A DNA stretch of 64,000 nucleotides from a virus. Below the pieces are notes generated by a model, which searched no databases, was not told where the DNA came from, and worked only from the letters and a program-made list of their open reading frames with translations. The stretch is taken from IMG/VR virus record IMGVR_UViG_3300025620_000004, positions 1 through 64,000 of that record. One strand, written 5' to 3'. Shown piece after piece: positions 25,215 through 51,818 of this stretch (position 1 is its first letter; every line of letters starts with the position of its first letter). The translations under genes were made by a program, and so were the position numbers.

Positions 25215-28200
25215 ATGAGACATGGCGGAAATGGCGGTGGTGGTGCCGGCACAGGTAACAGTGGTAATTCCAATCCAGGAGGTACAGGCACATCTAGCAA
25301 TAATGCTGCTACAATTAGTACAAGCGCTAGCGATGCGCAGCTTGTTTCTATTACAGATGTTATTTCAGAAGGCCCCATACTAGGTTTAGTAGACGGTTCG
25401 GCTTCTGTATTCCTGAATAATGACAGAATTCACGAAGTATCTGCGGCAGGGCAACGTGTATCTCATGGCCCTATGACTATCACTCTTACTAATGGGTCTA
25501 CTTCAGCAACAATTAATAATGCAACTTCTACCACTCCCTTGACTGCAAATGCCTCGCTAGGAGCACAACTATTAATACGAGGAGGAAATTTAACAGAAAC
25601 AAGTGTAACAAGTAGTTATGATACTAGACATAAAGTAAGTTTATCTACTTCTTCAAGTACTTTTACTCAAACTATGGTTACCGCAGTTGGTCAACGAGCA
25701 AGACCAGATAGTTTAGTTCCTGGGCGTATTAAACCGACGGGTAGCAGTACTACTCCTGACGGCCTTCCTATAGAAGGTTTTATATGGCGTAGAGTTAGCG
25801 GTACCGAGGCTCTTTGGAGATCAGGTGCTTTCGGTGATTATAACGATTTCAGGCTCGATGACGCAACGTACAAGCTAGAACTAGATAAAATAGTAAATAT
25901 AAATGCAGGAGGTATTAATGGCTCCTCTATAACACTTGCAAGTGCTTGGGACGGAATATCGGGGACATATAGCTGGGATAAAATAAGTGTAGTTAATATG
26001 GATATTTCTGAGGTAGGCAGTAGAGCTTCTCAGCGAGTACAAGGTGGTACTGTTAATTTCAGACCAGGCACATTAAACCAAACTCCCATGCGCAGCGGTG
26101 GCGAAACTGCAATTAGTAGAACTATTGGCGAACAAATGGAGGTGGGAACTGCTCGATTTTTAGTGGGCAGTGGTAACTGCGGTCTCACAGAAGCTCAGCT
26201 TCTAGAAGTGGACAAACTAAGATGGCGTATTACTTATCCTGCAGGATTTAAAGCAATCAGCGGTAAAGGCAATGATAAAACTACTTACATAAGGTATAGA
26301 ATAAGTATAGCAATAAAAGAGGAAGGAGACTCTGATTTCGGAGGTTTTACTATTATTAGAAATCCTCTAACTCATAGTGGTAACTATACTAACTCTAAAA
26401 CTTTTGAAAGCGACTTAAATCTTGAAAGATTTCGCCCTTTCACAGACTTCAAACTAAAATTAGAAAGACTAGATACAGATGACGACCCCGGTTTTAAATC
26501 TGTAGGACAAACTTACAAAGACTGGACAAATGTTACTGCAGGTAGTCTTACAGGCGTGACTTCTATTCTAAATGAAAAACTTAACCATCCTTATACTGCT
26601 ATGGCTGATGTTTCTTTTAGCACGAAGCAGTATCAAGGTATACCTCAAAGAACTTATGATCTATACGGTAAAATGGTTAGAGTGCCTTCAAACTATGTTA
26701 CAAGAGAAGAAGCAACCAATGGAGTAGCTTCTTATAATAGAAATACAAGTACTGGAGTCATTACTAGCAATTACCAAGACTGGGACGGGGATTTTCGAGA
26801 TGAATTAGTTTATAGTAACAACCCTGCTTGGATTTACTATGACATTCTTACTAATAATAGATACGGTTTGGGTTCCTTCATTAAAGAAGTGGATATAGAT
26901 AAGTATGCTCTTTACCGCGTTGCAAGATATTGTGACGGCTTAGTTCCCGATGGAAAAGGAGGACTAGAGCCTAGGTTTACATTAAATACCTACTTGACAA
27001 AAGGGGCAAATAGTTATAAAGTTCTCAAAGACTTAGCAACTAACTTTTTAGGTTTGCTTTACTACTTAGATGGACAGCTTTATACCTCTCTTGATGCTCC
27101 AGCAGCTCCGGTCTATACATTCAATAAAACTAATGTAATAGATGGTACATTTAGCTACGAGAGTTCTTCGGAGAAAACTAGAAGCAATCAAATTATTGTA
27201 AACTGGAATGACCCAACAAAAGACTATAAGATGGAGCCTTTAATCGTTGAAGATGAGCGAAATATAGTCAATACAGGCAGAATTATATCTGAAACTGCAG
27301 TTGCTTTCGGCTGTACTTCAGAAGGGCAAGCTACACGATACGGTAAATGGAAACTATGGACAGCAGCAAATCAGAAAGAGATAGCTACTTTTTCAGCAAG
27401 CCTAGAAGGTGCATTTGTAGCTCCTGGCGATATAATCAATATCCAAGATGCGGATAGATATGCTGTAAGACTGGGCGGACGAGTTTCAAATACAGGAACT
27501 CTTAGCACTACTACTATACCTTTAGACTCTACTGTTCTTTTGAATTCAGGATCTACATATACTTTAAGCTTGGTTTATCCTAAGCCTGCTGCATTCACTA
27601 GAGAAGCTGTTACTATAAGCGGAGTTAGTTATGAAGCAGGAGATTTAATACATCAAGCGTATGTTGATGGCTCTTTAACAGTAATTGATACTAAAGAAAA
27701 GTCTGTAAACGCTAAAGTATCTGCATCTTCCGGAGCCGAACCTTTAACACTTGACTTCAATGCCAATCTACGAACAGAAACAAAAGATATAACTTCTAGT
27801 CAAATTGGAAGTTCTGTAACTTCTATCACTGTGACCTCTGCATTTACAGAGGCTCCTACTAGAGAATCCTTGTGGGTTCTTCAAGAGACAAAAACTGGAT
27901 TACAGGTAAAAGGGTCTAAAAAAGAATACAAAGTTTTATCTATCTCTGAAAACTCTGGCAATGTCTACGATATAACGTGTATTGAACATTATGACAGCAA
28001 GTGGACTTCTGTAGAAGAAGATTTTACTACATACATACAAGGAGATTTAGAGCCCTCTCTACTAAGCACAGATGTTGTTCCGCCTGTCGAAAACTTGATA
28101 GCAAGAAGTCACGGCAGAGATAATGGTACAGCCCATGAAACCTTACTTGTTTCTTGGGATCCACCAGGGGCAGGACAAGCTTACGTTAGAAACAGTACCG

Positions 28201-31200
28201 GAGGTAGACATAATCAAACGGTTAGTCAAGAATACGAATACTTACTTGGATATATCGTAGAACACAATTTACCCGAATATGAAAATCCTATGAGGGTAGG
28301 CAGGGACACAACTGAACTTTTATTTTCGGATTTAGTCCCAGACGACTATACAATAACGGTAAGAACAGTTAATGCGATAGATAATGTATCAGAAGCAATT
28401 AGTGTTCAAACAACTATAACTGATCGTTTCCAGGATGCTATACCCAGATTCCCCTTAGGTCTTCCCTATGGTGGTACGTCTAATGTTGCTATAAAAACCA
28501 TAAACAGTACTTCTGGCGATTCAGACTACGGATTATTTGAGTTGGCAAAAAGTGTTTACATCTTTAGTCCTGAACAAACAAACGGGTTCGGTATAAACCA
28601 GACTTCAACAGCAGCTTCTACATATCAACAAGATGTATCAGGAATTGCGGAAACAGCTGCAGTAGCTTCTTCAGAGTCTGGTACTTTTATTGACAGGCAT
28701 TATTATGTATCTTTAAACTCAGCTGTAGCCACTGATAACCTCACACTACTTAAATATAATAAAACACCAAATCACCGTGTTCCATATTGGTATGATGCGG
28801 GGAACGGTAGTAATACAACTGGTTTAACGAATCTTACAGGTACTATAAGTGTATCGGGTTCTACTGTTACAGGTTCTGGTACAAGTTTTACTTCTGAACT
28901 AGTAGTAGGAGCACTTCTACAAACAACATCTACTGCAGCAGCTATAGTTACCTCGGTAGTTAGTGACACAGCCGTTTATATTGATAGAATTTTACCAGAC
29001 GGATCGGGTATAACCGCTCAGACTAACAATCATAGATTTGATTTTGATAATGAAACTATTATAGCCAAAGTTTACGCTACAGATAATGGAGCAGCCAATA
29101 AAGTATTTTCGATGGAGCCTTATATGTCGTTGGACGCAAATGTCCAAGCACAACAAGGTGTTACCAGAACTCTATACTACAGAGCTACTAATAATGGAGC
29201 AGCCGGCACTATTAATACTACTACAGGTACTTTTGACGACCCTGCAACTGGAGCAGCCACAGGGTGGCAGTTAGCAAATCCTGGACTACAAGCCAATGGC
29301 GATATTATTTATGCTATAACTCGTATCTTTACCAACGATGGTCTAGCCCCTCAAGAGGCTAGTTGGTCAACCGCTTCTATTGTTGCAAGACGACAAGATG
29401 GTGCGGCAGGTAATGCTGCAAAAGTAGTATCTTTGCGCGCTAGTAAATCAGTTATAGAGTATGCTGCAGATGGTACTACTGGCTCAGGTCAAACTATTAC
29501 TTTAACTGCGGAATCAAAAAACTTCGATGATGGATACTTCAGGTTCACAGCAGATGATGGCTCTTTTACTACAATAGACTGGGTTGATGGTACTACCGCA
29601 AATACCAAAACAGCCACGTATAGTATACCTACAAGCTACAATGCAGACCCTATTACTTTTACTGTACAGGTTAAAGAGGGTAGCTCTGGCTCCGAAGAAG
29701 CTAGAGATGTTCTTACTATTCCTTCAATTAAGCCAGGTGTTGACGCAATAGATGCACTAACTGTAGTTATGACAAACGAAGCTCATGCAATTCCTAGAGC
29801 TTCGGCAACGGCTACACCTGACTTCACAGGCTCAGGAAATACTATTAGAGTCTTCGAGGGGACAACAGAACTAGACCACGATAATACAGGCACCGCTGCC
29901 AGTCATTATAAAGTTGTTACTACAGGCTCTACTAACTGTACTCCAGGTAATTTAACTGGTGAAGGTTCTAATGTTCTTTCGGCAACCTTTGACCAGATCA
30001 CGGGAATAACAGGAAATACGGCACTCGTAAAATATACTATAACAGGTAAGCGAGCAGACGGAACAGCTTTCTCCCTTGTTAGATTCCAGTCTTTAACTAG
30101 AACAACGGACGGAGCTCCTGGTAATCCCGCTGTAGATGAAAAAACAGTCATTGTATACAAGAAGTTTGCCGCAGGAGTATCAGCGCCTACAGCAATTACA
30201 TTTACTTCTGGCAATAATGCAACAGATCAAACCCACTCGAATCCTACAAATGAGCTAGACGGTTGGACTATTGCTTATCCTTCTATAAGTGTTGAAGGCG
30301 ATCGAGTTTATTCAGGACAAAGAACCTTCACATTAACTGGAGGCGATAGCTCTTGGACTTTCAACGGACTAGTTGCAGAAATAAAGACAGGGCCTAGAAC
30401 AGCTACAATACAGTTGCATTATTCTGCTGCTGTGACTGATGGAAGTACTCCTGCAAAGCCAACTACTTCCAATACTCACACATTTAATTTTGCAGCTAGT
30501 ACTTTTGGGACTATAAAAACAGGATGGCAGCATGGAGCACCAACGTATGCTTCGGGTAACTCTAATAAATACTACTACTCTTTTGCGACTATTACCGAGT
30601 CTTCTTTTGGAGGTTCTCAGACTATAACTTTCGGTAATACAACTCAAGCTATAGGATTCTCCGGCTTAGTTACCTTTACTTCAGCAGGTGTGTTAGAGGA
30701 CGACCAATATTCGATTACGCCTCTTACTACTCACCAAGATGTAAGTAGTTTTATGGAGGCAGCAGATGTCGCAGACCATATTGGTGGAGCCAACACCTCA
30801 ACTATTGATGGAGGTAAGATCAACGCAGGCAGCTCTGTTACAGTAGGAACTAGCGGAACTAACCGAGCAGGCTTATCAGGAGTAGGAACTGCAGAAACCG
30901 ATATTAGAGTTTTTTCGGGAGCAGCTTTTGCCAACAGAGCAACAGCACCTTTTAGAGTAACACAGGCAGGTGAATTTAGGTCTTCTACTGGTATTATAGG
31001 CGGATTTACGTTCGGTGATGATGCCATGACCACTAGCCAAGACACTATATTAAGACTTGGTTCTGATCTCGGAAATAACATAGATCAAAGTGTGACTTTA
31101 TCTTCCAGGTCTGAAGATGATTATGTTATTTATGCAGGTCATGCTCCTACAGATGATGATCCAGTGACTACAGACGCTCCTCCTCCTTTTGGTGTAGAAA

Positions 31201-32735
31201 AGAACGGTAATGTAACTATGCGGTCTTATCAGCTTACTGATACTGCAGGCGCTATTGTATTTGACTCAGAAAACTTATTAGGTGGACCCGTACTAGCTCA
31301 GATTCAGAACTTGGTAGGGAATTTTACAGATAGTGTTACTACCTCTATTCACGCTTCCGGTCATATCAAAGTAGAACTAGGGGCTGCTCAAAACGTACAA
31401 ATTGGTTATGAAGTACCTCTAGGAAATCCCTATGTGAGTGACGTATCTACAAGTGTAGCTGACGTTATGAATGCGTTACCTTCAGCCATTAAAGTAAATG
31501 TTGAGTACTCTACTAATAATGGAGCATCTTGGAGTTTATTTGGTGCTCAAACTTTTAGTAGACTATCTAGTACAGACGCCAATGCTACTACAAGCGCCTC
31601 TCAGTATCTTGTTCATGGAGATTCTTATGATGCTCGCTCGGGCGGTACCAGATACGTAGCACATATTGTTAGTAATAAAGGAGCAGTATCTGCAACAGGC
31701 GGCTTAAAAGGCACTATAACAGGTTCAGGAAATTTATCAGCAGGTACTTACTTATTTAGAATAGATGATACTTCAGGTACTTCCGGTAATTCAGGAATTG
31801 TATGGACTGCCGGGTCTTATACTGGCTATGGCTATACCTTCCATAAGTATGGTAGCGGCTCCTCGAACGACCCTGCTCAGGCTTTTGCAAAAAATGCAGA
31901 TAGAGTGTACATTGTAGGTTCTAGTTCTTCGACAGGAGGTACAGCAGGTGCTGGTTATACTATTAATACAAATACTAGTCCACCTCACGTTAAAGATTCT
32001 ACTTTTAATATAGAGTATATGCCTATTACAGGAGGTACTTTTACAGGTGCGCTTAACTGGGGAACAGACACTGCCAGCATAAACTATGGTAACTACGGTA
32101 CGGGTACTGATGTTTTTAGCGTGAATCTAGGTAGCAACTCTAACGGGATAGTATTTGGACTGAATGGTAATGCCTTGCAATTGCAGGACAATCTTAGTGC
32201 ACATCATTCATTTGATAATAATGGAGACATTAGGTTCACAGGAGACTTAAAACAGCTCGACGATGGAGATACTAAGATATCTTTCACCAACGACAAAATA
32301 AGTTTTCTAGCCGGTAATGCTACAATGATGGAGTTAGTTGAAGTAAGCACAGGATATGATTACGTTAGACTAGGAAATACTGGTGATGGCAATGATACCA
32401 TTACGTTTAATCTATCAGCAGGCTCAGGTGTCTTTACAGGAAATGTAACAGCTTACTCAGATATAAGTCTTAAAGAAAATATAGAAGTTATTGATAATGC
32501 CGTAGATAAAGTCAGTAAACTAAGAGGTGTTACTTTTGACCGAATCGATAAAGAAGCCATTCCCAGACAAACGGGACTTATCGCTCAAGAACTAGAAAAA
32601 GTGTTGCCTGAAGCTGTGGAAACTAATGAGCTATCAGGTATAAAGTCGGTAGCTTATGGCAATGTCGTAGGTCTTTTAGTAGAAGCAATTAAAGAACTCA
32701 AAGAAGAAATCGAAGAGTTAAAAAGGAGTAAATAA
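25215..32735 (+). CDS. Central tail fibre / host specificity protein (gpJ-like) with S74 chaperone
   Basis: 2506 residues, twice lambda gpJ. A Gly-rich start, then J-like core segments: ISEGPILGLVDGSASVFLNNDRI, NNPAWIYYDILTNNRYGLG, EIDKYALYRVARYCDG (approximate), and fibronectin-type material at about 950-1080. The distal part (about 1080-2400) is beta-rich with repeated Thr/Ser/Gly turns. The end is an intramolecular chaperone (peptidase S74): SDISLKENI near residue 2415 with the Ser-Lys dyad, then TGLIAQELEKVLPEAV and a coiled-coil tail. It should trimerise, fold and be cleaved. It probably recognises the receptor. Confidence 0.9.
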   Translation: MRHGGNGGGGAGTGNSGNSNPGGTGTSSNNAATISTSASDAQLVSITDVISEGPILGLVDGSASVFLNNDRIHEVSAAGQRVSHGPMTITLTNGSTSATINNATSTTPLTANASLGAQLLIRGGNLTETSVTSSYDTRHKVSLSTSSSTFTQTMVTAVGQRARPDSLVPGRIKPTGSSTTPDGLPIEGFIWRRVSGTEALWRSGAFGDYNDFRLDDATYKLELDKIVNINAGGINGSSITLASAWDGISGTYSWDKISVVNMDISEVGSRASQRVQGGTVNFRPGTLNQTPMRSGGETAISRTIGEQMEVGTARFLVGSGNCGLTEAQLLEVDKLRWRITYPAGFKAISGKGNDKTTYIRYRISIAIKEEGDSDFGGFTIIRNPLTHSGNYTNSKTFESDLNLERFRPFTDFKLKLERLDTDDDPGFKSVGQTYKDWTNVTAGSLTGVTSILNEKLNHPYTAMADVSFSTKQYQGIPQRTYDLYGKMVRVPSNYVTREEATNGVASYNRNTSTGVITSNYQDWDGDFRDELVYSNNPAWIYYDILTNNRYGLGSFIKEVDIDKYALYRVARYCDGLVPDGKGGLEPRFTLNTYLTKGANSYKVLKDLATNFLGLLYYLDGQLYTSLDAPAAPVYTFNKTNVIDGTFSYESSSEKTRSNQIIVNWNDPTKDYKMEPLIVEDERNIVNTGRIISETAVAFGCTSEGQATRYGKWKLWTAANQKEIATFSASLEGAFVAPGDIINIQDADRYAVRLGGRVSNTGTLSTTTIPLDSTVLLNSGSTYTLSLVYPKPAAFTREAVTISGVSYEAGDLIHQAYVDGSLTVIDTKEKSVNAKVSASSGAEPLTLDFNANLRTETKDITSSQIGSSVTSITVTSAFTEAPTRESLWVLQETKTGLQVKGSKKEYKVLSISENSGNVYDITCIEHYDSKWTSVEEDFTTYIQGDLEPSLLSTDVVPPVENLIARSHGRDNGTAHETLLVSWDPPGAGQAYVRNSTGGRHNQTVSQEYEYLLGYIVEHNLPEYENPMRVGRDTTELLFSDLVPDDYTITVRTVNAIDNVSEAISVQTTITDRFQDAIPRFPLGLPYGGTSNVAIKTINSTSGDSDYGLFELAKSVYIFSPEQTNGFGINQTSTAASTYQQDVSGIAETAAVASSESGTFIDRHYYVSLNSAVATDNLTLLKYNKTPNHRVPYWYDAGNGSNTTGLTNLTGTISVSGSTVTGSGTSFTSELVVGALLQTTSTAAAIVTSVVSDTAVYIDRILPDGSGITAQTNNHRFDFDNETIIAKVYATDNGAANKVFSMEPYMSLDANVQAQQGVTRTLYYRATNNGAAGTINTTTGTFDDPATGAATGWQLANPGLQANGDIIYAITRIFTNDGLAPQEASWSTASIVARRQDGAAGNAAKVVSLRASKSVIEYAADGTTGSGQTITLTAESKNFDDGYFRFTADDGSFTTIDWVDGTTANTKTATYSIPTSYNADPITFTVQVKEGSSGSEEARDVLTIPSIKPGVDAIDALTVVMTNEAHAIPRASATATPDFTGSGNTIRVFEGTTELDHDNTGTAASHYKVVTTGSTNCTPGNLTGEGSNVLSATFDQITGITGNTALVKYTITGKRADGTAFSLVRFQSLTRTTDGAPGNPAVDEKTVIVYKKFAAGVSAPTAITFTSGNNATDQTHSNPTNELDGWTIAYPSISVEGDRVYSGQRTFTLTGGDSSWTFNGLVAEIKTGPRTATIQLHYSAAVTDGSTPAKPTTSNTHTFNFAASTFGTIKTGWQHGAPTYASGNSNKYYYSFATITESSFGGSQTITFGNTTQAIGFSGLVTFTSAGVLEDDQYSITPLTTHQDVSSFMEAADVADHIGGANTSTIDGGKINAGSSVTVGTSGTNRAGLSGVGTAETDIRVFSGAAFANRATAPFRVTQAGEFRSSTGIIGGFTFGDDAMTTSQDTILRLGSDLGNNIDQSVTLSSRSEDDYVIYAGHAPTDDDPVTTDAPPPFGVEKNGNVTMRSYQLTDTAGAIVFDSENLLGGPVLAQIQNLVGNFTDSVTTSIHASGHIKVELGAAQNVQIGYEVPLGNPYVSDVSTSVADVMNALPSAIKVNVEYSTNNGASWSLFGAQTFSRLSSTDANATTSASQYLVHGDSYDARSGGTRYVAHIVSNKGAVSATGGLKGTITGSGNLSAGTYLFRIDDTSGTSGNSGIVWTAGSYTGYGYTFHKYGSGSSNDPAQAFAKNADRVYIVGSSSSTGGTAGAGYTINTNTSPPHVKDSTFNIEYMPITGGTFTGALNWGTDTASINYGNYGTGTDVFSVNLGSNSNGIVFGLNGNALQLQDNLSAHHSFDNNGDIRFTGDLKQLDDGDTKISFTNDKISFLAGNATMMELVEVSTGYDYVRLGNTGDGNDTITFNLSAGSGVFTGNVTAYSDISLKENIEVIDNAVDKVSKLRGVTFDRIDKEAIPRQTGLIAQELEKVLPEAVETNELSGIKSVAYGNVVGLLVEAIKELKEEIEELKRSK

Positions 32736-33665: not shown

Positions 33666-34004
33666 ATGAGTGCAGCCCGCTACAACCTAGTTATTGACCA
33701 AGGTTCCGACTTTGCCATTAACTTTACTGTTAAAGACAACGGATCAGTTAAAAACCTGACAGGCTATTCTGCGCGTGCTCAAATGAGAACTTCAAAGACA
33801 GCTTCCTCAGTTGCGGCTACTTTTAATTGCGCTATTAATACTCCAGCAAACGGAACAATTACAATGTCTTTAGCAAATTCAGTGAGCAGCCCGTTAACCG
33901 CAGGTACTTACGTTTATGATTTAGAAATCTTCACCGCTAACAATGCCAGTGTAACTAGATTAATTCAAGGGTCTGTAGACCTCACTCAAGAGGTTACCCG
34001 ATAA
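33666..34004 (+). CDS. Immunoglobulin-like virion protein
   Basis: 112 residues. YNLVIDQGSDFAINFTVKDN, YSARAQMRTSK, NGTITMSLAN and AGTYVYDLEIFTANNASVTRLIQGSVDL form an ordered series of beta strands, the layout of small Ig-like baseplate or fibre proteins known in many phages. It is the first gene after P6 and overlaps the next ATG. Probably a base for the following fibre proteins. Confidence 0.6.
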   Translation: MSAARYNLVIDQGSDFAINFTVKDNGSVKNLTGYSARAQMRTSKTASSVAATFNCAINTPANGTITMSLANSVSSPLTAGTYVYDLEIFTANNASVTRLIQGSVDLTQEVTR

Positions 34005-34390: not shown

Positions 34391-35419
34391 ATGGCTCAAA
34401 CAATTCAAATCAAGCGTAGTACTAGTACTACAACCCCCTCAAGCCTTACTGCAGGTGAATTAGCATATTCAGGTAAGTCAGACAGTAATAAACTATTTAT
34501 CGGACACCCCGACGGCACTACAGGTGTTGTTGCTATTGGTGGTCAATATTACACAGGCATTATTGATGGTGCCGCAAGTGCGAACACTGCAAGTAAATTA
34601 GTACTGCGAGACGGTTCAGGAAACTTCAGTGCTGGTACAATTACAGCTACTTTAACAGGTGATGTTACTGGTAACGCAGATACTGCCACAGCTCTTGCTT
34701 CAGGCAGAACGATTGCAATCACAGGGGACTTAGCGTATACTTCTCCTAGCTTTACAGGTGCTGGCAATGTTACCGCAGCAGGTACTCTTGCAACAGTAAA
34801 CTCAGACGTAGGATCTTATGGTACTGCAACGGCAATTCCTGCAATCACTGTAAATGCAAAAGGTCTTGTTACAGCGGTTAGTACTAATAGTATTTCTTCT
34901 AGTTTTACTCTAGCGGCAGACAGCGGCACCAACGATACTTTCAATAATGGTGAAACTTTAACACTTACAGGCGGAACAGGTGTTGCCACAACTGTTAGTA
35001 ACAATGCGGTTTCTTTTGCAATCGGACAGGCAGTTGCTACCACCTCTAATGTAACATTCAATAATGTTCAGGTAGACGGTACTCTAACTTCTGATGACAT
35101 TACTTCTACAAATATCTCGGTTGCTGGTAATGCTACAATTACGGGTAATCTTACAGTTGAAGGTACTACAACTACTGTTGATTCTACTACTGTTGCCATT
35201 GGTGATAACATCATGGTTCTTAACAAAGACGAAACAGGTACTCCTTCTGCAAATGCTGGTATCGAAGTTGAACGAGGAACTGCGACAAATGTATCGCTTC
35301 TTTGGAACGAAGGCAACGATAACTGGACTGTGAGCAATGGAAGTGCAACTTCCGTAATATTAACTGCCGCAAACTTTGGAAGCACTTATACAGGTGCAAT
35401 TGACGGCGGTACATTCTAA
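34391..35419 (+). CDS. Tail fibre protein with MTD-like N-terminal module
   Basis: 342 residues. The N-terminal module QTIQIKRSTSTTTPSSLTAGELAYS plus NKLFIGHPDG resembles the N-terminal domain of major tropism determinant proteins. The middle is Thr/Ala/Gly/Asn-rich beta repeat (GDVTGNADTATALASGR, TLATVNSDVGSYGTATAIPAITVNAKGLVTA). The end has paired strands (NISVAGNATITGNLTVEGTTTTVDSTTVAIGDN). No reverse transcriptase or variable repeat is present, so no diversity-generating element is claimed. Confidence 0.7.
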   Translation: MAQTIQIKRSTSTTTPSSLTAGELAYSGKSDSNKLFIGHPDGTTGVVAIGGQYYTGIIDGAASANTASKLVLRDGSGNFSAGTITATLTGDVTGNADTATALASGRTIAITGDLAYTSPSFTGAGNVTAAGTLATVNSDVGSYGTATAIPAITVNAKGLVTAVSTNSISSSFTLAADSGTNDTFNNGETLTLTGGTGVATTVSNNAVSFAIGQAVATTSNVTFNNVQVDGTLTSDDITSTNISVAGNATITGNLTVEGTTTTVDSTTVAIGDNIMVLNKDETGTPSANAGIEVERGTATNVSLLWNEGNDNWTVSNGSATSVILTAANFGSTYTGAIDGGTF

Positions 35420-35467: not shown

Positions 35468-35698
35468 ATGGCACAAACGATCAAATTAAAGCGCTCGTCT
35501 ACGGCGGGCTCTATTCCTACTCATTCACAACTAGAGTTAGGCGAAGTTGCTATCAATACTGCGGACGGTCGTATGTATATGAAAGACGGAGCTAACGCCA
35601 TTGTCTGGGTAAATAAAACTTCTGAAATTACAGGAACCACTCCGCAAGCATCGGACGGAACAAATAAGCCCGTAGGGTATGTTTGGTATGTAGTCTAA
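35468..35698 (+). CDS. Short fibre adaptor with MTD-like N-terminal module
   Basis: 76 residues, essentially only the module QTIKLKRSSTAGSIPTHSQLELGEVAINTADGRMYMKDGANAIVWVN, a second copy of the type that starts the previous protein. It is preceded by TAGGAGAG. It may cap or anchor the giant repeat protein encoded 1 bp downstream. Confidence 0.65.
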   Translation: MAQTIKLKRSSTAGSIPTHSQLELGEVAINTADGRMYMKDGANAIVWVNKTSEITGTTPQASDGTNKPVGYVWYVV

Positions 35699-35699
35699 G

Positions 35700-38600
35700 A
35701 TGACTATTAAGGTTTGGAATGGTTCCGCAGTACAAGAACCAGAGCAAATAGTAGTTAAAGCTGCAGCGGGAACGTTGCGGTTTGTAAACTATGTCGTACA
35801 GAAAGTTACAGATGGAAGTCTGAATACTGTATGGAATGCTATTTACAATACAAGCCGATCTACCGATACCTCTAGAAGCTCTACAACTACTTTTACGACT
35901 ACCTTTGACACTAGTGCAAGTACCAATATTAATACTACTACGGGATTTGATACAATCAGAGGTACTACCAGAAGCACAAGTAGCACGTTTACTACTGCGT
36001 ATGATACTTCTGCTGTTACTTCCAAGTCTACTACTACCGCTTACAGTACCACATTCGGTACAACTGCAAGTACAACCACTACTTATGTGAGTAACTTCGA
36101 TACAACTCGTGGTACTACAGTAAATACCACTACCTCTTTCAATACTACTTTTGCTACATCGAAAGATACTACTACTGCGTTTACCACTACTTTTGACACT
36201 GCTACTAGTGTGGCTACTACTACTGCGTTTACAACAACGTTTGAGACTACTCGCGCCACTGCGGTAGATACCACCACTACATTTACTACGACTTTCGCAA
36301 CTAGTAAAACAACTAATACAGTATTTACTACTACGTTTAATACTACTACTACTCGTACTACCACTACTGCGTATACGACTACTTTCAACACGAGTAAAAC
36401 TACTCTACGAAATACCACGACCACGTACACTACTAGCTTTAATACTACAAAAAGCACTGTTACTACGTTCAATACTGAATTTGCTACAGGTACGAGCAGA
36501 GCTACCACAACCACGTATACTACTACGTTTAACACTACTAGATCTACCACGATAGATACTACTACTGCTTATACTACGACTTTTAATACTACTCGATCTA
36601 CAACGATAGATACGACTACTACGTTTAATACTACGACTACTCGTAGTACTACGACTACGTATACAACTAATTTTAATACTTCAAGAGGTACTTCTAAGTC
36701 TACTACTGTAAACACTACTACGACTTTTGATACTTCTCGAAGCACTTCTAAATCTACAACTACTGTATTCAATACTCAGACTTCAAGAGGTACAGATAGA
36801 GCAACCACTACGACCTTTAATACTTCTCGAAGCACAAGCAGGGGCACCAGTAAGTCTACCACTACTACATTCCTAACAGGAACCTCACGTAGTACAACAA
36901 CAGCTTTTGTTACTCAAACAAGTAAGTCAACCTCCAGAGCAACAACGTCTGTATACGATACTAGTAGAGGTACTTCCCGAGTTACTAGTAAAGCCACTAC
37001 TACTGCTTTTGCTACGGGTACAAGCCGAAGCACTACTACAGCATATGCTACGTCGAGAGGCACAAGTCGTGCTACCAGTAGAGGTACTACTACAGTATTC
37101 GGAACAACTACAAGCCGAGGAACAACGACAGCCTTTAACACGACGACTACTTTTACTACAACTCGTGCCTCCAACACTGTATATGCCACAAGCAGAACTA
37201 CCGGTACTTCGAGAAGCACAACAACAGCTTTTGCTACCGCTACAAGTCGAAGCACTGGAGAAAGTAGAAGCACAACTACTACGTTTAATACAAGTAGAGG
37301 TACAACTTTTGGTACCACTACTGTATTTGTTACAGCTACTTCAAGAGGTACTGGCGAAAGTAGGGGTACTACTACGAGTCGAGGAACGGCTACGAGTCGT
37401 ACAACATCTTTCAATACCACTACTTCTTTTGGTACTACGACTGCGTATACTACTACAAGTTCATTTACTACAACTTTTGCTACCACGACTGCATACACAA
37501 CTACAACTGCATTTACCACAACTTTTAGTACCACGACTGCGTATACAACTACAACCTCGTTTACGACTGCATTCGGCACTACTACAGCGTACACAACTAC
37601 TACTTCGTATACAACTACTACTACATTTGGTACTACTACTGCATATACTACATACTATACAGCTAGTACGAGCAGAGGTACTACTACGTCTCGTGGTACG
37701 TCTCGTGGTACGTCTCGTGGTACAAGCCGAAGCACTACTACTGCCTTTGTGGGGCAGACTGCCTATGCTAGTTTAGTAGTACGAACTACTACGTTTACTA
37801 CGTATTATAATACCGCGTATACTACATACTACTATTCTCGTAGCCATACAAGCAGGGGTACTTTAAGAGCAACCAGTAGAAGCACAAGTAGAACTACCAC
37901 ATTCTATCAAGATGTAAGACATGATACGGCAAAAAGTCGAGGAACAACCACTGCTTTCACTACTAGTTATACTACCTACTGGAGTACAACTTTTGGTACT
38001 ACCACTACTTTCGGTACTGCGAAAAGTCGCGCAACAAGCCGTAGTACTGCTACAAGTAGAGGTACAGGAGAATCTCGAGGAACAGGGGAGTCCAGGAGCA
38101 CTACTACTTCTCGCGGTACAAATAGAGCAACAGCAGAATCTAGAGGCACTGCTACAAGCAGAGGCACTTCTAGAGCAACAGCAGAATCCAGAAGTACTGC
38201 TACAAGCAGAGGCACTTCTAGAGGTACAGGAGAGTCCAGAAGCACTACTACAAGCAGGGCAACAGGAACTAGTCGTACAACTACATTTACTACAACTACT
38301 TCTTTCGGTACAACCACAGCGTATACAACAACTACTACGTTTGGCACTGCCACAAGTAGAGGTACTACTACGAGTCGTACTACTACGTTCGGAACCAATA
38401 GAAGTACAACTACAGCGTATACAACAACTACTACGTTTAATACAATTACCAGTAAAGCTACTACTACTGCTTTTGGTACGACTACTACTTTTGACACAAG
38501 TAAGAGTACTACCACAACCTATAACACAAATAGGGCAACAGGAACGAGTCGAGGTACTACTACTGCTTTTGTTACAGCAACGAGTAAAAGTACAACCACA

Positions 38601-39926
38601 GCGTATACTACATCTTTTACTACTACTTTCGGTACTAGTAAAAGCACTACTACTTCGTTTAATACTACAACTACTCGTAGTACAACGACTACGTATACCA
38701 CTGCGTTTTCTACAACTTTTAATACGTCGTTAAGTACAACTACTACATTTACTACTACATTTGGCACTACGACTACTAGGGCTACAACGACTGCGTTTAA
38801 TACTAATACTACGCTTGCTACTACAACTGCTTATACTACTACGTTTACTACTACTTTTGCAACAAGTAAAAGTACTACTACCGCGTTTACTACTACTTTT
38901 GCGACAGCTACAAGTAAAAGTACAACTACTACTTTCAATACTACGTTCGCTACAAGCAAAAGTACTGGCTGTGTGTATACTACTGCATATACTACTACAT
39001 TTGGTACCAGTAATATAACATCAAAGGCAACTACGACAGCATTCCTAACCGCTACTAGTAAAACAACTACTAGTACGTATACTACTACTTTTGCCACAAG
39101 TAAAGGTACTTCGAAAACGACCACTAGTACATATACTACTATATTTAATACTAGTAATGTAACCGATAAATCAACTACTACGGCGTTTAATACTACTACA
39201 TCTCGTTCTACTACGAAAGACACTACTACTACGTTTATAACTAGTAGAACTACTACGAATGAAACTGGTTGCACCTATACTACTACTTTCGCAACGAGCC
39301 GAGGTACAACTAAAGACACAACTACTGCATTCTCTACTGCCACATCCAGAACTACTAATTTTGATACTACAACTGTATTTGATAGTTCCAGAAGTACAAC
39401 AAAGAGCACTAGTAGCCAGTATACCACTGTCTTTAATACTAACCGAGGCACTAGCAAGTCCACTACCTCTGTATTTAATACTGCAACCAGTAGAGGCACT
39501 GATCATCAGACAAGCACCGTATATGATACAACAGGAGGAACTTCTAGAGTTACTTCGAGTGCATTTGTTACTGTATTTAATACGACTGTAACTACGGATA
39601 AAAGTACCACTACAGCATTCGATACCTCCAGAGCCACTACTAAAAGCACTACCAGTAATTATACTACTACGTTTGCTACTTCTAAGAGCACGCAAGTTAC
39701 TACAACTACTGCATTCTCTACAGTTTATAATACTACTCGTAGTACTACTACTACGCGTACAACTACTTTTGAAACGAGCAAATCGACTTCAAGAGCTACC
39801 ACTACTACGTTCGGAACAAACACAGTTGTTTATGAGCGTATCACAAGTACAGGAGTTGAGACCGAGGTTTCATCTTCTTCTGCACACAACTCACGATATT
39901 GGGATGGATCACAATGGACGGAATAA
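35700..39926 (+). CDS. Giant Thr/Ser repeat protein, probable fibre or adhesin
   Basis: 1408 residues. An ordered start (about 1-50, MTIKVWNGSAVQEPEQIVVK...) and a short ordered end (VVYERITSTGVETEVSSS...SRYWDGSQWTE) flank about 1300 residues of low complexity. In a 50-residue sample I counted about 60 percent Thr or Ser; the rest is mostly Phe, Tyr, Arg, Lys, Ala, Asn and Gly, with few acidic residues. Units such as TSRG, TSRS, TTTA and F/Y-TTT-F recur with a period of four and, in places, sixteen residues. Codons for Thr vary freely, so the protein pattern is conserved more than the DNA. Two glycosyltransferase-like genes follow. Function is inferred. Confidence 0.75.
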   Translation: MTIKVWNGSAVQEPEQIVVKAAAGTLRFVNYVVQKVTDGSLNTVWNAIYNTSRSTDTSRSSTTTFTTTFDTSASTNINTTTGFDTIRGTTRSTSSTFTTAYDTSAVTSKSTTTAYSTTFGTTASTTTTYVSNFDTTRGTTVNTTTSFNTTFATSKDTTTAFTTTFDTATSVATTTAFTTTFETTRATAVDTTTTFTTTFATSKTTNTVFTTTFNTTTTRTTTTAYTTTFNTSKTTLRNTTTTYTTSFNTTKSTVTTFNTEFATGTSRATTTTYTTTFNTTRSTTIDTTTAYTTTFNTTRSTTIDTTTTFNTTTTRSTTTTYTTNFNTSRGTSKSTTVNTTTTFDTSRSTSKSTTTVFNTQTSRGTDRATTTTFNTSRSTSRGTSKSTTTTFLTGTSRSTTTAFVTQTSKSTSRATTSVYDTSRGTSRVTSKATTTAFATGTSRSTTTAYATSRGTSRATSRGTTTVFGTTTSRGTTTAFNTTTTFTTTRASNTVYATSRTTGTSRSTTTAFATATSRSTGESRSTTTTFNTSRGTTFGTTTVFVTATSRGTGESRGTTTSRGTATSRTTSFNTTTSFGTTTAYTTTSSFTTTFATTTAYTTTTAFTTTFSTTTAYTTTTSFTTAFGTTTAYTTTTSYTTTTTFGTTTAYTTYYTASTSRGTTTSRGTSRGTSRGTSRSTTTAFVGQTAYASLVVRTTTFTTYYNTAYTTYYYSRSHTSRGTLRATSRSTSRTTTFYQDVRHDTAKSRGTTTAFTTSYTTYWSTTFGTTTTFGTAKSRATSRSTATSRGTGESRGTGESRSTTTSRGTNRATAESRGTATSRGTSRATAESRSTATSRGTSRGTGESRSTTTSRATGTSRTTTFTTTTSFGTTTAYTTTTTFGTATSRGTTTSRTTTFGTNRSTTTAYTTTTTFNTITSKATTTAFGTTTTFDTSKSTTTTYNTNRATGTSRGTTTAFVTATSKSTTTAYTTSFTTTFGTSKSTTTSFNTTTTRSTTTTYTTAFSTTFNTSLSTTTTFTTTFGTTTTRATTTAFNTNTTLATTTAYTTTFTTTFATSKSTTTAFTTTFATATSKSTTTTFNTTFATSKSTGCVYTTAYTTTFGTSNITSKATTTAFLTATSKTTTSTYTTTFATSKGTSKTTTSTYTTIFNTSNVTDKSTTTAFNTTTSRSTTKDTTTTFITSRTTTNETGCTYTTTFATSRGTTKDTTTAFSTATSRTTNFDTTTVFDSSRSTTKSTSSQYTTVFNTNRGTSKSTTSVFNTATSRGTDHQTSTVYDTTGGTSRVTSSAFVTVFNTTVTTDKSTTTAFDTSRATTKSTTSNYTTTFATSKSTQVTTTTAFSTVYNTTRSTTTTRTTTFETSKSTSRATTTTFGTNTVVYERITSTGVETEVSSSSAHNSRYWDGSQWTE
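35850..39815 (+). repeat. Degenerate 12-nt tandem repeat array (four-codon units)
   Basis: The coding DNA of the Thr/Ser protein is built from degenerate 12-nt units. Exact DNA copies occur locally, for example ACGTCTCGTGGT three times at 37686-37721. Unit length is a multiple of three, so slippage changes protein length without breaking the frame. The array borders are approximate. Confidence 0.7.
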
Positions 39927-40051
39927 CCCTCAAAGAATTAAACCACAAAATAGAAACAACTTTAGAAATAGTCATGGAGCACTTCGTAGAAATGGAAGAG
40001 CGAATGGAAGATTTAGAGACTCAGCTTGAGGAATTACAGGATGGGGCTTAA
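39914..40051 (+). CDS. 45-residue coiled-coil protein
   Basis: ATG at 39914, TAA at 40049-40051, overlapping the ends of both neighbours. It begins MDGITLKELNHKIETTLEIV and continues as one acidic helix with heptad-like spacing. The position between the repeat protein and the glycosyltransferase-like genes suggests a small chaperone or adaptor. No family is recognised. Confidence 0.5.
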   Translation: MDGITLKELNHKIETTLEIVMEHFVEMEERMEDLETQLEELQDGA

Positions 40052-40913
40052 AAGACTAGCAGATAAAGATGAGCTAGGAAATAAGGCAGCACACTTCTTT
40101 AAGTCTGGTAATATAATGCGTACAGACGAAAACGATGAAGTTACAAAACTGAAAGAGCTGCTTCCTGCCCGAGGAAACTGGGGAACACCTTTAGAATACG
40201 ATGTCTGGTACGATATTGCGGAAGAAGAAATTGCTGGGTATACGTACACCGATTGTTTTTCTAAATGTATAATGATACGTGTCGCGTCTTACGAGAAAGC
40301 AAATCGTACAATGAGACTAGCAGCCAAAGAGCCTATAAGCGAAGAAGGTTTAGCTATTTTTAACGAACTCCGTGATAATAGTCACGATAAGTATAAACTT
40401 AGCAAAAGAAAACAAAAGCAGCATAAGTTTGTAATCTTTCTCCCAGGTACTAATATCATAGACAAAGTTTTAAATTACGATAAAGCTAAAAGGGCAGTGG
40501 CACAAGGTGCTGTACTAAAATGCCATCCTTTAACAGCTCCCGGAATGGTAGCATATCTCAAATCAGAGTTTGGTAGAGAGAATGTTATAGACAAGAAACT
40601 GTCTGGCCATAAACTTCTGGATGAGGCTGATATTGTAGGTTGTTGTAGCAACTCTGAAATGGGCTTGCTTGCAATTGCGAAAGGGAAAACAGTATACACT
40701 TTTGACTCAAAACCTGATTTACAGACTACTTACGGAGCAATCTACAGAGCAATCTGGGGTAAGGATGATATGCCTAGCGTGAATAGATTTAAGAGATTAC
40801 TTTCCTCAAAGTATTCCGGTATCATTCCTTACTTTATAGACAACCCGCAAGAAAGAATAAACTATTATTTTAATTTTTGGAAAGCAAACCCCCATGCAAT
40901 ACCTCGTAATTGA
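40041..40913 (+). CDS. Putative GT-B glycosyltransferase
   Basis: 290 residues from ATG 40041, with GAGGAA upstream; the frame is open from 40026. The C-terminal half has the pattern of GT-B transferases of the capsule type: KFVIFLPGTN, KCHPLTAPGMVAYLKSEFG, then LLDEADIVGCCSNSEMGLLAIAKGKTVYTFD, where HP and S-E-x-G-L-x-A-x-x-K-G-K are the sugar-nucleotide site features. The N-terminal half is less clear. It overlaps the next gene by 20 nt. With that neighbour it could glycosylate the Thr/Ser protein or modify host glycans. Fold inferred from pattern, not searched. Confidence 0.5.
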   Translation: MGLKRLADKDELGNKAAHFFKSGNIMRTDENDEVTKLKELLPARGNWGTPLEYDVWYDIAEEEIAGYTYTDCFSKCIMIRVASYEKANRTMRLAAKEPISEEGLAIFNELRDNSHDKYKLSKRKQKQHKFVIFLPGTNIIDKVLNYDKAKRAVAQGAVLKCHPLTAPGMVAYLKSEFGRENVIDKKLSGHKLLDEADIVGCCSNSEMGLLAIAKGKTVYTFDSKPDLQTTYGAIYRAIWGKDDMPSVNRFKRLLSSKYSGIIPYFIDNPQERINYYFNFWKANPHAIPRN

Positions 40914-41601
40914 AAATGAGTTTACAGCCCTTACTGTAAACTCTATAAAACAAAACATGCCTGATGCAAAATACGTGACTGCCCCTATGGGAGAGGGCAG
41001 GATTCAGACAGCTTTAAAACTGTGCACAGAGCCTACTATGGTAGTTACAGGCGGTATTATACTCAATATAAAAGAAGGAGATTTACCAGACCCTAAAGTG
41101 CTGGAAACTAAACACTTGGCAATGAGTAGAGAAGCAGTTTTTGCAGATCACCCTAGATGGAACCGGAACTATGAACTCATAAAAAGTCGTTTGCATGACG
41201 GAGTTGTGGATATGTCTATTTTTATTATTAACCCTGTAAAATGGAAAAAGATACCTAAAAAAGATATTAATTTTTTACTTGGAAAAAAGATATTGTATAT
41301 GCCAAGATATATGAATCATAGAGATGATCCAACACTAGGAACTTGTATGGGTGGAAAAGATATACTGGCATATGCGTCTTTGGGAGAGGACGCCTCTGTG
41401 CATAACTATCTTACTCACCTATACTCAGGAAAAGCTAGTGTAAGAGAGACGTTTGGATGTTGTTTTGATAAGCTACTACCCTATACGGAAGGTTTAGACG
41501 AAAGAGAAAAAGAGATAGTAGAAAAACTAGGTAATCTTACAAAGGTAAGGGTAGGAAAGTTAAGGCAGATGATGATAGACAGAAAAAAAGCCCCTGATTA
41601 A
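40894..41601 (+). CDS. Putative glycosyltransferase-like protein (GT-A type?)
   Basis: 235 residues. The N-terminal part QYLVIENEFTALTVNSIKQNMPDAKYVTAPMGEGRIQTALKLC followed by TMVVTGGIILNI has the rhythm of a GT-A domain (nucleotide-sugar strand, then a helix, then a central hydrophobic strand), but no classical DxD is seen there. The C-terminal half contains several conserved-looking clusters (HPRWNRNYELIKSRLHDG, YMPRYMNHRDDPTLGTC). Its stop codon is in the loop of the terminator that ends the rightward arm. Confidence 0.4.
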   Translation: MQYLVIENEFTALTVNSIKQNMPDAKYVTAPMGEGRIQTALKLCTEPTMVVTGGIILNIKEGDLPDPKVLETKHLAMSREAVFADHPRWNRNYELIKSRLHDGVVDMSIFIINPVKWKKIPKKDINFLLGKKILYMPRYMNHRDDPTLGTCMGGKDILAYASLGEDASVHNYLTHLYSGKASVRETFGCCFDKLLPYTEGLDEREKEIVEKLGNLTKVRVGKLRQMMIDRKKAPD

Positions 41602-49118: not shown

Positions 49119-50402
49119 CTAAAGGTACTTCATGTCCCAACCCTGCTTCATATAGAACCCAACACGATTGGAGGCTTGTTTTCGAGCCGTATTTCCTTTC
49201 AGATGTATATCTATAATAACAGGGTCGATTTTACCTTCTTTTTTCCGAATCACTCGTCCACAAAGCTGTGTCAGTAGTGGTTCATTATTTACAGGGGTTG
49301 CCAGTATAAGACAGCTAAGTGTGTCTACTGATATACCTTCTGAGAAGATAGCCTGTGTTCCATAAAGAACGTTTTTATCTCCGTAGAGTATTTCCTCTAC
49401 GAGTGTTTCTCTATCTTCATGCGATACGTCACCAGTAACGCATATTGATTTGTCTCCTGTAAGTTCGGAACAAGCCTTCAAAAAGCTCACTCTATCACTT
49501 ACTACTAAGACTTTGTGTCCTTTAGCGGCATAAGCTGCGGCTAAAAGTGCTATTGTATGTCTATACTCTTCATCATTTGCTAGCTTTGTAACTCTGTTAG
49601 CCCAGGGGATTCTAGCTCCATCCATGAATCGTATCTCTGACGGTACAATATGTACTGTAGGGGTCATATAGTTTTCTTTCGGTGGCTTGAAAAGAGTATT
49701 ACCAAAGTAATCTCTGAACACAACGTGTTTTCCATCCTTTCTTTCTATAGTACCCGACAGACCTATCTTATATCTACAGTAATTTGTATCTAAAATTTTA
49801 CTAAAGGTCGGACTGCTAACATGATGCATCTCATCTAGTATAACTGTGCCAAACTCTTTACGAATCTTGTCTACGTTTCGGTATAAAGTCTGTGTATTCC
49901 CAATGACGATAGGAGCATCAAGATCAAACTGACCACTACCTATGATGCCTGGTTTAATTCCATAGACTTTCTCTACTTCTTTTGCCCACTGATTACGCAG
50001 AGGGACAGTATGGGTAACAACAAGCGTCTTCTGACCAAGTTTACCAGCAATAGCTAAACCTGTAAATGTCTTACCCCAACTCACCCATGCGTTAATTATG
50101 GCGTTGTCTTCGATTTCGTCATAGACCTTCTTTTGACTAGCTCGAAGATCGAACTTAAACTCGGGGAATTCTACAGGCTTGTTTACTCGCCTATCGACTA
50201 TTTCGTAATTTGATGGTATTAAATCCGTACGTCCGATAGGTAATGAGACTAACCCATTACGAATAATGCCCATATTCTTAATCACCTCAGGTGGATCAAG
50301 AGGATTGTGCGTAGGAATAGTATAGGTGAGCTCTTTGTCGATTCTCTCCTGTACTTCTTCGGTACAATCCATGTATATTCTGTGACTTATAACTGCCTTC
50401 AC
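49119..50402 (-). CDS. SF2 DNA helicase (UvsW/RadD-like)
   Basis: 427 residues. Helicase motifs: Q-region FDLRASQKKVYDEI, motif I with an unusual AWVSWGKTFTG, motif Ia VVTHTVPLRNQW, motif II LDEMHH, motif III GLSGT, motif VI LTQLCGRVIRKK. It probably branch-migrates recombination intermediates and converts replication from origin-dependent to recombination-dependent modes, as known for T4 UvsW. It overlaps the upstream gene by 4 nt. Confidence 0.9.
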   Translation of the reverse strand: MKAVISHRIYMDCTEEVQERIDKELTYTIPTHNPLDPPEVIKNMGIIRNGLVSLPIGRTDLIPSNYEIVDRRVNKPVEFPEFKFDLRASQKKVYDEIEDNAIINAWVSWGKTFTGLAIAGKLGQKTLVVTHTVPLRNQWAKEVEKVYGIKPGIIGSGQFDLDAPIVIGNTQTLYRNVDKIRKEFGTVILDEMHHVSSPTFSKILDTNYCRYKIGLSGTIERKDGKHVVFRDYFGNTLFKPPKENYMTPTVHIVPSEIRFMDGARIPWANRVTKLANDEEYRHTIALLAAAYAAKGHKVLVVSDRVSFLKACSELTGDKSICVTGDVSHEDRETLVEEILYGDKNVLYGTQAIFSEGISVDTLSCLILATPVNNEPLLTQLCGRVIRKKEGKIDPVIIDIHLKGNTARKQASNRVGFYMKQGWDMKYL

Positions 50403-50926
50403 GAAGTCGCCTCTTTCAAGGCAGCTTTAACGGCCTGCACTGACATATAGTTTTCAGGTACTTGCATACATATGTGTGGAATCTCTAAGTCTTGTATCAT
50501 AATACTAAGAAGAGTATCCGCCACAGTAGTCCAACGCATACTAGGAACACCGCGCAATGCTACGCCTCCGAGATCCATTGTGGTAATCTTACATTGTTTC
50601 TCGGGACAATTCCAGTGTAAGTTGTTAGCATAGTGATTCAAAGCTGCTTTCTGCGCGGCATACATATACCCTTTGGATATATTCGGTTGGGCGGCACGAG
50701 AAGATATGTTAAAAATTATCCTCTTAGGATCAAATCTCCACTCATTGAATACATACTCTAGCAGCTCTACTTGCTTGAAGCCAACGTGTGCATAGTTTAT
50801 GAAACACCCATACTCATTAATATCTACTCTACCTTCGAGTATATCTTCAATGCGACAAGTGTCAATGGGTATAAGGTGGTTAAGGGCAGAGTAAAGTGTA
50901 CTAGTCCCGGTTATTAATGTTTTCAT
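50399..50926 (-). CDS. SDR-type oxidoreductase-like protein
   Basis: 175 residues, short for a short-chain dehydrogenase. It begins MKTLITGTSTLYSALN where the dinucleotide-binding loop should be, but the TGxxxGxG glycines are mostly missing. It keeps FNISSRAAQ (Ser75) and YMYAAQKAALNHYA with Y89 and K93 as YxxxK. Redox activity with a divergent cofactor site, or a degenerate role, are both possible. It overlaps the radical SAM gene by 26 nt, so the two are probably co-translated and work in one pathway. Confidence 0.65.
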   Translation of the reverse strand: MKTLITGTSTLYSALNHLIPIDTCRIEDILEGRVDINEYGCFINYAHVGFKQVELLEYVFNEWRFDPKRIIFNISSRAAQPNISKGYMYAAQKAALNHYANNLHWNCPEKQCKITTMDLGGVALRGVPSMRWTTVADTLLSIMIQDLEIPHICMQVPENYMSVQAVKAALKEATS

Positions 50927-51818
50927 AGTGCTCCTTTACTAGATTAAACGATGGTTTTCCAAATAAAGAACCATCTACGCTACATTTATTGCAGGGAGAC
51001 ATAGATCTGTCACCCTTCATTAGTTTTTTACGAATCTTGGTCATAGGCTTACTGAACCATACATCGTATAGAGAATCTTGTAATAGATTGCCTACTACGT
51101 GCTCTCTGCCCCAATCATTACTACAGAACAGTACATCACCATTCCAATCGACAAACATTTTATAGAACGGGTAGTGACAAGGCTTACCTTGTAGTGCAGT
51201 AACACTACTCTCCTCTACTCCTACCCAATCCATAACTCCGCTTCGATTGTTCAGAATTAAACCATGCTTTTCAAAATCACCCCAATGCATACGGTACTTA
51301 TAGTTTGCTTTAGGAATATCTTTCATAATTACATCAAAGTGTTCCATCTGCTCAATACCATCATACAAGTTGATATACAATATGTCGAGACCCCGTTGCG
51401 AGATCAAATCTTCAGCGTACTCTTTAGTCAGCCTATCTCCATTAGTATTGCACTCTATAGTAGCATCGGGTAGATACTCTCTAAAGGCTGATACTATTTC
51501 TGGAAACTGAGGGTTAAGTAGATTCTCTCCGAACCCGCTGAGAGATATTTTGCCTCTAAAATCATTGTTAGCAAGTTCTTTCGCAATAGTAGCAGCACCT
51601 TTTACAGTCATATGAAGGTTTCGGTTAGGAAACACTTCTGGATCGTGTCGAGGGCAGAATACACACGTTCTATTACACAATTCTGTAGTATTAATCTCTA
51701 CAGTAAGTATAGAACGTAGGGGTGAGTCTTTTGTATTCCTTGACCAGTGTGCGGCTTCTTGGTTTCTTCTGTGTTCCAAGAAGTCGTACTGGTCTACTGC
51801 TACTGTGGGTATTTTCAT
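50901..51818 (-). CDS. Radical SAM enzyme with SPASM-like C-terminus
   Basis: 305 residues. The cluster motif CxxxCxxC is C48, C52, C55 (ELCNRTCVFCPRH). TIM-barrel segments follow (GKISLSGFGENLLNP, ATIECNTNGDRL, LDILYINLYDG). The C-terminal cysteines CSNDWGREHVVGNLL and CNKC suit an auxiliary Fe-S cluster (SPASM/twitch). Substrate unknown. The pair with the SDR-like protein between the helicase and PhoH genes may modify a nucleotide, a peptide or a sugar. Confidence 0.85.
   Translation of the reverse strand: MKIPTVAVDQYDFLEHRRNQEAAHWSRNTKDSPLRSILTVEINTTELCNRTCVFCPRHDPEVFPNRNLHMTVKGAATIAKELANNDFRGKISLSGFGENLLNPQFPEIVSAFREYLPDATIECNTNGDRLTKEYAEDLISQRGLDILYINLYDGIEQMEHFDVIMKDIPKANYKYRMHWGDFEKHGLILNNRSGVMDWVGVEESSVTALQGKPCHYPFYKMFVDWNGDVLFCSNDWGREHVVGNLLQDSLYDVWFSKPMTKIRKKLMKGDRSMSPCNKCSVDGSLFGKPSFNLVKEHYENINNRD

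Follow-up and report, generated by a model that had tools for sequence, protein, structure and literature searches.

A giant Thr/Ser-rich repeat protein, encoded in the tail region of a siphophage-type virus, is bound by a near-absolute genomic linkage, extending across many phage lineages, to a neighboring gene (A) whose product is a predicted glycosyltransferase. Comparative sequence analysis suggests that, in many unrelated phages, sugars are attached to a fiber of the phage's own particle: A, together with a second predicted transferase (B) where it is present, probably glycosylates the Thr array of a virion fiber, the sugar perhaps being a CMP-ulosonic one, for instance Kdo. As far as is known, only a few phage groups glycosylate their virions, and a search of the accessible, incomplete literature found neither the arrays nor A described.

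Organization of the locus

The window, i.e. the whole stretch of 64,000 nucleotides that was analyzed, is part of a virus record of 72,864 bases. The features relevant to the locus are:

25215..32735, + strand: J-like tail tip protein of siphophage type, 2506 aa, which sets the tail-region context
33666..34004, + strand: 112-aa protein like the L-shaped tail fiber assembly protein (phrog_3304, E 2.9e-20)
34391..35419, + strand: 342-aa structural protein (phrog_697, structural protein)
35468..35698, + strand: 76-aa tail-fiber-type N-terminal protein, directly 5' of the array gene (PHROG tail-fiber matches, E 2e-10 to 1e-5)
35700..39926, + strand: Thr/Ser array protein, 1408 aa
39914..40051, + strand: cc, predicted coiled coil, 45 aa, kept in 72/72 A-anchored loci
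40041..40913, + strand: A, predicted GT-B-type glycosyltransferase (fold model and invariant KxHP motif)
40894..41601, + strand: B, predicted GT-A-fold glycosyltransferase, 235 aa (fold model)

The gene order runs from the J-like tip through small structural and tail-fiber genes to the array, cc, A and B, and is followed by replication genes on the other strand, including a ribonucleotide-reductase-like gene (read from its translation). The transferase-like genes A and B sit inside the phage structural module. The gapless succession of a 45-residue coiled coil and two overlapping genes reported in the initial annotation holds to the nucleotide: the ATG of cc (39914) lies inside the end of the array gene (stop 39924-39926), that of A (40041) overlaps the stop of cc (40049-40051), and that of B (40894) overlaps the stop of A (40911-40913).

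The 76-aa protein directly upstream of the array ends in ...GYVWYVV, as do upstream genes of several distant relatives. A shared tail, P[TS].G.GK..G[YFH]VWYVV, is seen in the pre-array genes of distant groups (window 35468-35698; L028, L031, L034, L091), hinting that the conserved ...VWYVV terminus may be a docking peptide between the upstream fiber protein and the array protein.

The array: an ordered repeat under selection at the protein level

The earlier picture of a giant Thr/Ser-rich protein of 1408 residues, with few acidic residues, many Arg/Lys and short ordered ends, was fully borne out. The protein contains 600 Thr and 184 Ser (together 55.7%), 142 Phe/Tyr, 123 Arg/Lys, 44 Asp/Glu and a single Pro, and T+S makes up 54-63% of most 100-residue windows along it. 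It comprises a conserved N-terminal domain of ~57 aa (MTIKVWNGSA...WNAIY), an array of ~1310 aa and a C-terminal domain of ~35 aa (VVYERIT...RYWDGSQWTE), with both ends kept in relatives. A search of the array against the PDB gave no match.

The repeat unit of the array is T-x-[FYWRK]-x-T. When the distances between successive F/Y/W/R/K residues were counted, leaving out adjacent pairs, 245 of 254 proved to be even, mostly 4 or 6, and Thr occupied position -2 relative to the bulky residue in 87% of cases and position +2 in 91%. The regular spacing of Phe/Tyr remarked upon previously is thus real but had been understated: the units are of four and six residues, almost always even, and carry Thr at -2/+2. 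Pooled over 91 arrays, 8523 of 9027 spacings are even, a count for which the binomial P is not literal because the repeats share ancestry. When residue classes are autocorrelated, even lags give mostly positive and odd lags mostly negative values, up to lag 39. The same parity governs insertions and deletions, measured in residues: 93 of 103 indels between homologous arrays are of even length, including 44/47 in six non-overlapping pairs, in which no sequence is used twice, and all 12 indels between the window array and its counterpart in L014 are even, six of them being of exactly two residues. In the arrays of Caulobacter phages the parity rule is weak, and Thr at -2/+2 is still kept there.

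An array of this kind could be an ordinary, unmodified low-complexity spacer generated by DNA slippage, with its linkage to A reflecting shared module transfer only. DNA tandem repeats with periods of 12-96 would fit such an origin and are recognizable in parts of the array only. Against it, the dN/dS of the array relative to relatives (0.16-0.17), taken together with the even-length indels and the Thr at -2/+2, implies selection on the array at the protein level, and the pairing with A documented below persists across unrelated phage families; we regard slippage as a very improbable explanation. The array is an ordered repeat under protein-level selection, and not random low complexity. The even spacing and even-length indels point to a selected β-strand-type fiber, for which the simplest account would be a strand-like backbone with bulky residues and Thr on one face and small residues on the other. 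On this account the parity rule, with almost only even-length indels over 1300 residues, would be a clean evolutionary signature of an unsolved β-fiber fold.

In one relative a 1517-aa array ORF (L318:9271-13824) ends in a non-array segment of intein-like appearance (...IIADGIITHNTGK) with no Pfam match, and is followed by a second array that runs off the contig end.

A and B: predicted glycosyltransferases

A matches only PHROG families of unknown function (phrog_26179 among them), and reaches no Pfam family at the cut-off, the Capsule_synth match being sub-threshold. Since sequence and profile searches of both A and B against PDB chains gave no match, their folds were predicted, and in both cases the models favored the earlier proposal of glycosyltransferase-like proteins. 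The AlphaFold2 model of A (pLDDT 87) recovered the GT-B proteins KpsC (GT107) and WbbB (GT99) as the best PDB folds in Foldseek searches (E 2e-4, probability 1.00), at a TM of 0.30-0.44 that marks the match as remote.

Homologues of A diverge to about 20% identity, and were grouped into 35 clusters below 70% identity. Ten residues are invariant in 35/35 clusters (numbered from the 40038 codon): D55, K118, Y119, G137, N139, K161, H163, P164, E207 and G261. Among these, K161-x-H163-P164 conforms in all 35 clusters to the (K/R)xHP motif, the CMP-binding motif common to sialyltransferases and retaining Kdo transferases (PMC12887879). QxxxD, the catalytic nucleophile motif of the retaining Kdo transferases (PMC10148158, PMC9587256, PMC12887879), is absent from A in the 35 clusters, which have G137 and L/I/F/V141 after the strand and no Asp; for this reason A was not assigned to GT99 or GT107. 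A looks like a sugar transferase that uses CMP-activated sugars, and its conserved residues would be compatible with an inverting mechanism in which [YF]-D55 serves as base. Its dN/dS of 0.05-0.08 indicates strong purifying selection.

The model of B (pLDDT 84) matched the GT-A proteins LH3, UGGT, GT6 and XXYLT1 in Foldseek searches of the PDB; in BFVD the matches were GT8/GT34 proteins, with a best E of 1.6e-9. Among viral proteins B is matched best by the unnamed A0A142EZR9, which has 250 residues, as does AAY80_003 of Stenotrophomonas phage DLP_6. The DXD metal-binding motif is not found in B, which has V-x-[SG]-G-x-x-L at that position of the alignment; metal-independent GT-A enzymes exist. 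B evolves with a dN/dS of 0.08-0.15.

The lack of DXD in B and of QxxxD in A would suit a role in which A, B and cc are fiber assembly factors built on glycosyltransferase-derived folds, binding the array with no transfer of sugar, and the small coiled coil and overlapping genes do resemble the layouts of fiber chaperones. Nevertheless, the invariance of K-x-H-P, D55, K118-Y119 and E207 at about 20% identity is what is expected of a kept active site, and A is under strong purifying selection; hence, we consider a purely assembly-related role rather unlikely, and favor A as an active transferase.

The initial annotation had envisaged two dedicated transferases. This stands for A, which is linked to the array, but B is not universal: profile searches failed to detect it in KVP40, in Caulobacter phages and in many of the contigs with an array, and profile comparison showed no homology between B and the gene after A in KVP40-like phages. 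Because B was not found in so many array contigs, the core of the system is the pair of array and A, and not two transferases.

Linkage of the array and A

In tblastn searches against phage records the array gave no match, low complexity being masked, and for this reason the array ends, A and a DNA pattern were used as queries. Linkage was surveyed from three anchors: 1) the array N-terminus; 2) A; 3) a DNA pattern for TTTFNT..R.T, which is independent of A. From the first anchor, every locus with adequate downstream sequence has cc-A-B, except L061, in which A was not found in the 10 kb downstream of the array (370 bp upstream were covered).

From the second anchor (72 loci), the array lies within 6 kb in 65, comprising 64 identified by score and L178 by profile and inspection; the latter had been array-free by score, a status rejected when inspection revealed an array. 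The coiled coil is present in all 72 of these loci and B in 71, the remaining locus being truncated. The loci with no nearby array are six terminase-side modules and L156, which has only 374 bases upstream. The terminase-side cc-A-B modules had also been taken as array-free, wrongly so for three contigs with an array elsewhere; the other three are fragments that contain no array. From the third anchor, 80 loci were recovered on 77 contigs, all 80 being true arrays, and A is present on 71 of the 77 contigs. In five of the six contigs without A the array runs off the contig end or lies at most 110 bases from it, and the sixth is L061. The array is directly 5' of A on the same strand in 59/61 loci, with a median gap of 58 bases. 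The prospect that homologous repeat proteins might occur mostly without these neighbors, which would have undermined the original proposal, is contradicted by these counts.

The array-A linkage is near-absolute across many phage lineages. Because array and A persist together while the N-terminal parts of the array proteins, the phage families and the gene order change, modification of the array by A would be the most economical reading.

Phage-encoded transferases that modify receptors are known in general, and A and B could likewise act on host LPS, capsule or another cell glycan, in receptor masking or superinfection exclusion, with fiber and receptor modification being co-selected. The closest folds of A, KpsC and WbbB, indeed make bacterial surface glycans (PMC10148158, PMC9587256). 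However, A tracks the Thr array whatever the N-terminal part or phage group, even when the two are many kilobases apart, and ordinary tail fibers that lack the array recruited no A in this survey, with the exception of DLP_6; a host-glycan target is accordingly judged quite unlikely, and the array itself remains our preferred acceptor for A.

Two variations in layout were observed. In L056, L057, L068 and L073 a single cc-A-B module lies between two different arrays, as though two fibers were served by the same enzymes, and in L198, L207 and L258 two long arrays stand in tandem near A.

Phyletic distribution

The array-A pair spans marine siphophages and other IMG/VR phage groups. Among 50,697 phage records, A is found only in Vibrio, Caulobacter and Stenotrophomonas phages, all with Gram-negative hosts. 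KVP40 (Straboviridae; 0254-0255-0256) and its relatives encode an array, a 72-aa coiled coil and A; Lullwater and BL198 (Autographiviridae) have a tail fiber, an array and A, the Lullwater pair being gp41-gp42; and in Cr30 a short Thr/Tyr-rich protein precedes A. The pair is also present in D479 and F86, which, like the phages just named, are cultured and unrelated, and a profile search of genome contigs with the alignment of A yielded one phage-like contig with the pair in an Alteromonadales MAG. The exception is DLP_6, where cc and A are accompanied by a third gene and no Thr array adjoins them.

Nearly all genes of these loci are annotated as hypothetical. Depositors labeled the array gene of some KVP40-related phages 'cell wall mannoprotein', and in Vibrio phage F86 the gene for the array protein of 185 aa (L105:4113-4670) was overlooked by the depositors, who annotated two tiny ORFs in its place.

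Other candidate sugar-related and tailoring genes near the module

In the genome under study, at about 64.2-65.6 kb and just outside the window, a GT29-like ORF (L097:1246-2034, - strand) overlaps a GT8-like ORF (L097:1970-2602, - strand); the former contains the motif VGNS...VRFGKG, of sialyltransferase type. The L092 homologue of the GT29-like ORF matches Pfam Glyco_transf_29 (E 7e-5). Such a gene occurs in 5 of the 24 A-bearing IMG/VR contigs searched, and its only match in the 50,697 phage records is in DLP_6, which also bears A. It was rejected as a core member, being absent from the complete records of KVP40, Lullwater and Cr30.

Within the window, a radical SAM/SPASM protein (50901-51818, - strand) adjoins an SDR-like ORF (50399-50926, - strand), and homologues in L092 and L094 adjoin the genes of GT29-like and GT8-like type, which hints at a second cluster concerned with sugars or with peptide modification. 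Genes like those for JmjC/cupin proteins and 2OG-Fe(II) oxygenases are met repeatedly close to the module in several phages (L094:7140-7880, L096:5198-5899, L188:8824-9315) and may encode further tailoring enzymes. In one array-module contig a SecB homologue (Pfam E 2e-20) lies directly 3' of B (L096:5902-6333, - strand).

Relationship to known glycosylation systems

The Ser-rich repeat adhesins of Gram-positive bacteria are huge Ser/Thr-rich proteins with dedicated transferases, GtfA and GtfB, encoded alongside. The likeness to a long Ser/Thr-rich repeat protein beside transferase-like genes is functional only: no part is homologous, the transferases belong to other families, and the phage loci have neither an LPXTG anchor nor accessory secretion genes, with the array ending in RYWDGSQWTE and having tail and replication genes as neighbors. 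The phage protein is instead a Thr array with two-residue alternation in a phage tail context, and its homologous phages infect Gram-negatives. In flagellin O-glycosylation (Maf, FlmG), a CMP-activated nonulosonic acid is put on Thr/Ser of a filament protein; a CMP-activated ulosonic sugar on Thr/Ser of a filament is likewise proposed for the array, although Maf and FlmG belong to a bacterial flagellin system. In mycobacteriophages, phage transferases have been suggested to glycosylate a structural protein, which in the case of Maravista is the capsid protein (PMC11256854). Both cases have phage-encoded transferases thought to act on a structural protein, but the array system has other hosts and other transferases, and its proposed acceptor is the Thr array in the tail-fiber region.

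The retaining β-Kdo transferases KpsC (GT107) and WbbB (GT99) are the best, though remote, PDB matches of A and have the (K/R)xHP CMP-binding motif in common with it. A differs from them in the missing QxxxD, in its short N-terminal part, in being phage-encoded and in its neighborhood, which is that of a protein array and not of capsule or O-antigen genes. KxHP is also common to A, the sialyltransferases and the inverting Kdo transferases with an HP motif (e.g. KpsS, with a YE catalytic motif), and profile comparison of A with these enzymes gave no sequence match. The invariant [YF]-D55 of A, far upstream of KxHP, may be the counterpart of the YE base reported for KpsS1 and KrkA (PMC12887879). 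The array-A system would work like other pairings of dedicated transferases with Ser/Thr-rich surface proteins, and no part of it belongs to them.

A model for glycosylation of the fiber

For catalysis, acceptor, donor, virion location and benefit we infer the following scheme: 1) The array would form a long β-type fiber of T-x-[aromatic or basic]-x-T units in the tail-fiber region, probably a virion fiber. 2) A, from the same operon, would act in the cytoplasm, ahead of assembly or in its course, and move sugar onto the hydroxyls of Thr (and Ser) in the array. 3) Its donor would most likely be a CMP-activated ulosonic acid such as CMP-Kdo. 4) The tiny coiled coil probably serves to tether the array or to present it. 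5) B, in phages that encode it, probably attaches a further sugar. 6) The outcome would be a long fiber with heavy glycosylation, which alters adsorption or provides a shield for the particle. Kdo or another ulosonic acid is favored because of the KxHP motif, the nearest folds and the CMP-Kdo present in Gram-negative hosts; a hexose may be added instead. The remote fold match of A, the missing QxxxD in A and DXD in B, the case of DLP_6 and the weak parity in Caulobacter phages all count against glycosylation.

A more specific formulation, which we advance tentatively and hold somewhat short of an even chance, is that T-x-bulky-x-T acts as a sequon on Thr-array β-fibers, and that a new transferase family with CMP-ulosonates (Kdo or sialic-type) as donors would O-glycosylate these fibers from the CMP-Kdo pool of Gram-negative hosts, in a widespread and undescribed phage system. 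If true, this would be a phage-encoded ulosonic-acid O-glycosylation of a virion protein. If the glycosylation model is right, sugar-coated phage fibers would be widespread in the sea, and cultured phages would already offer the means to test the donor, the sequon and the role of such a fiber.
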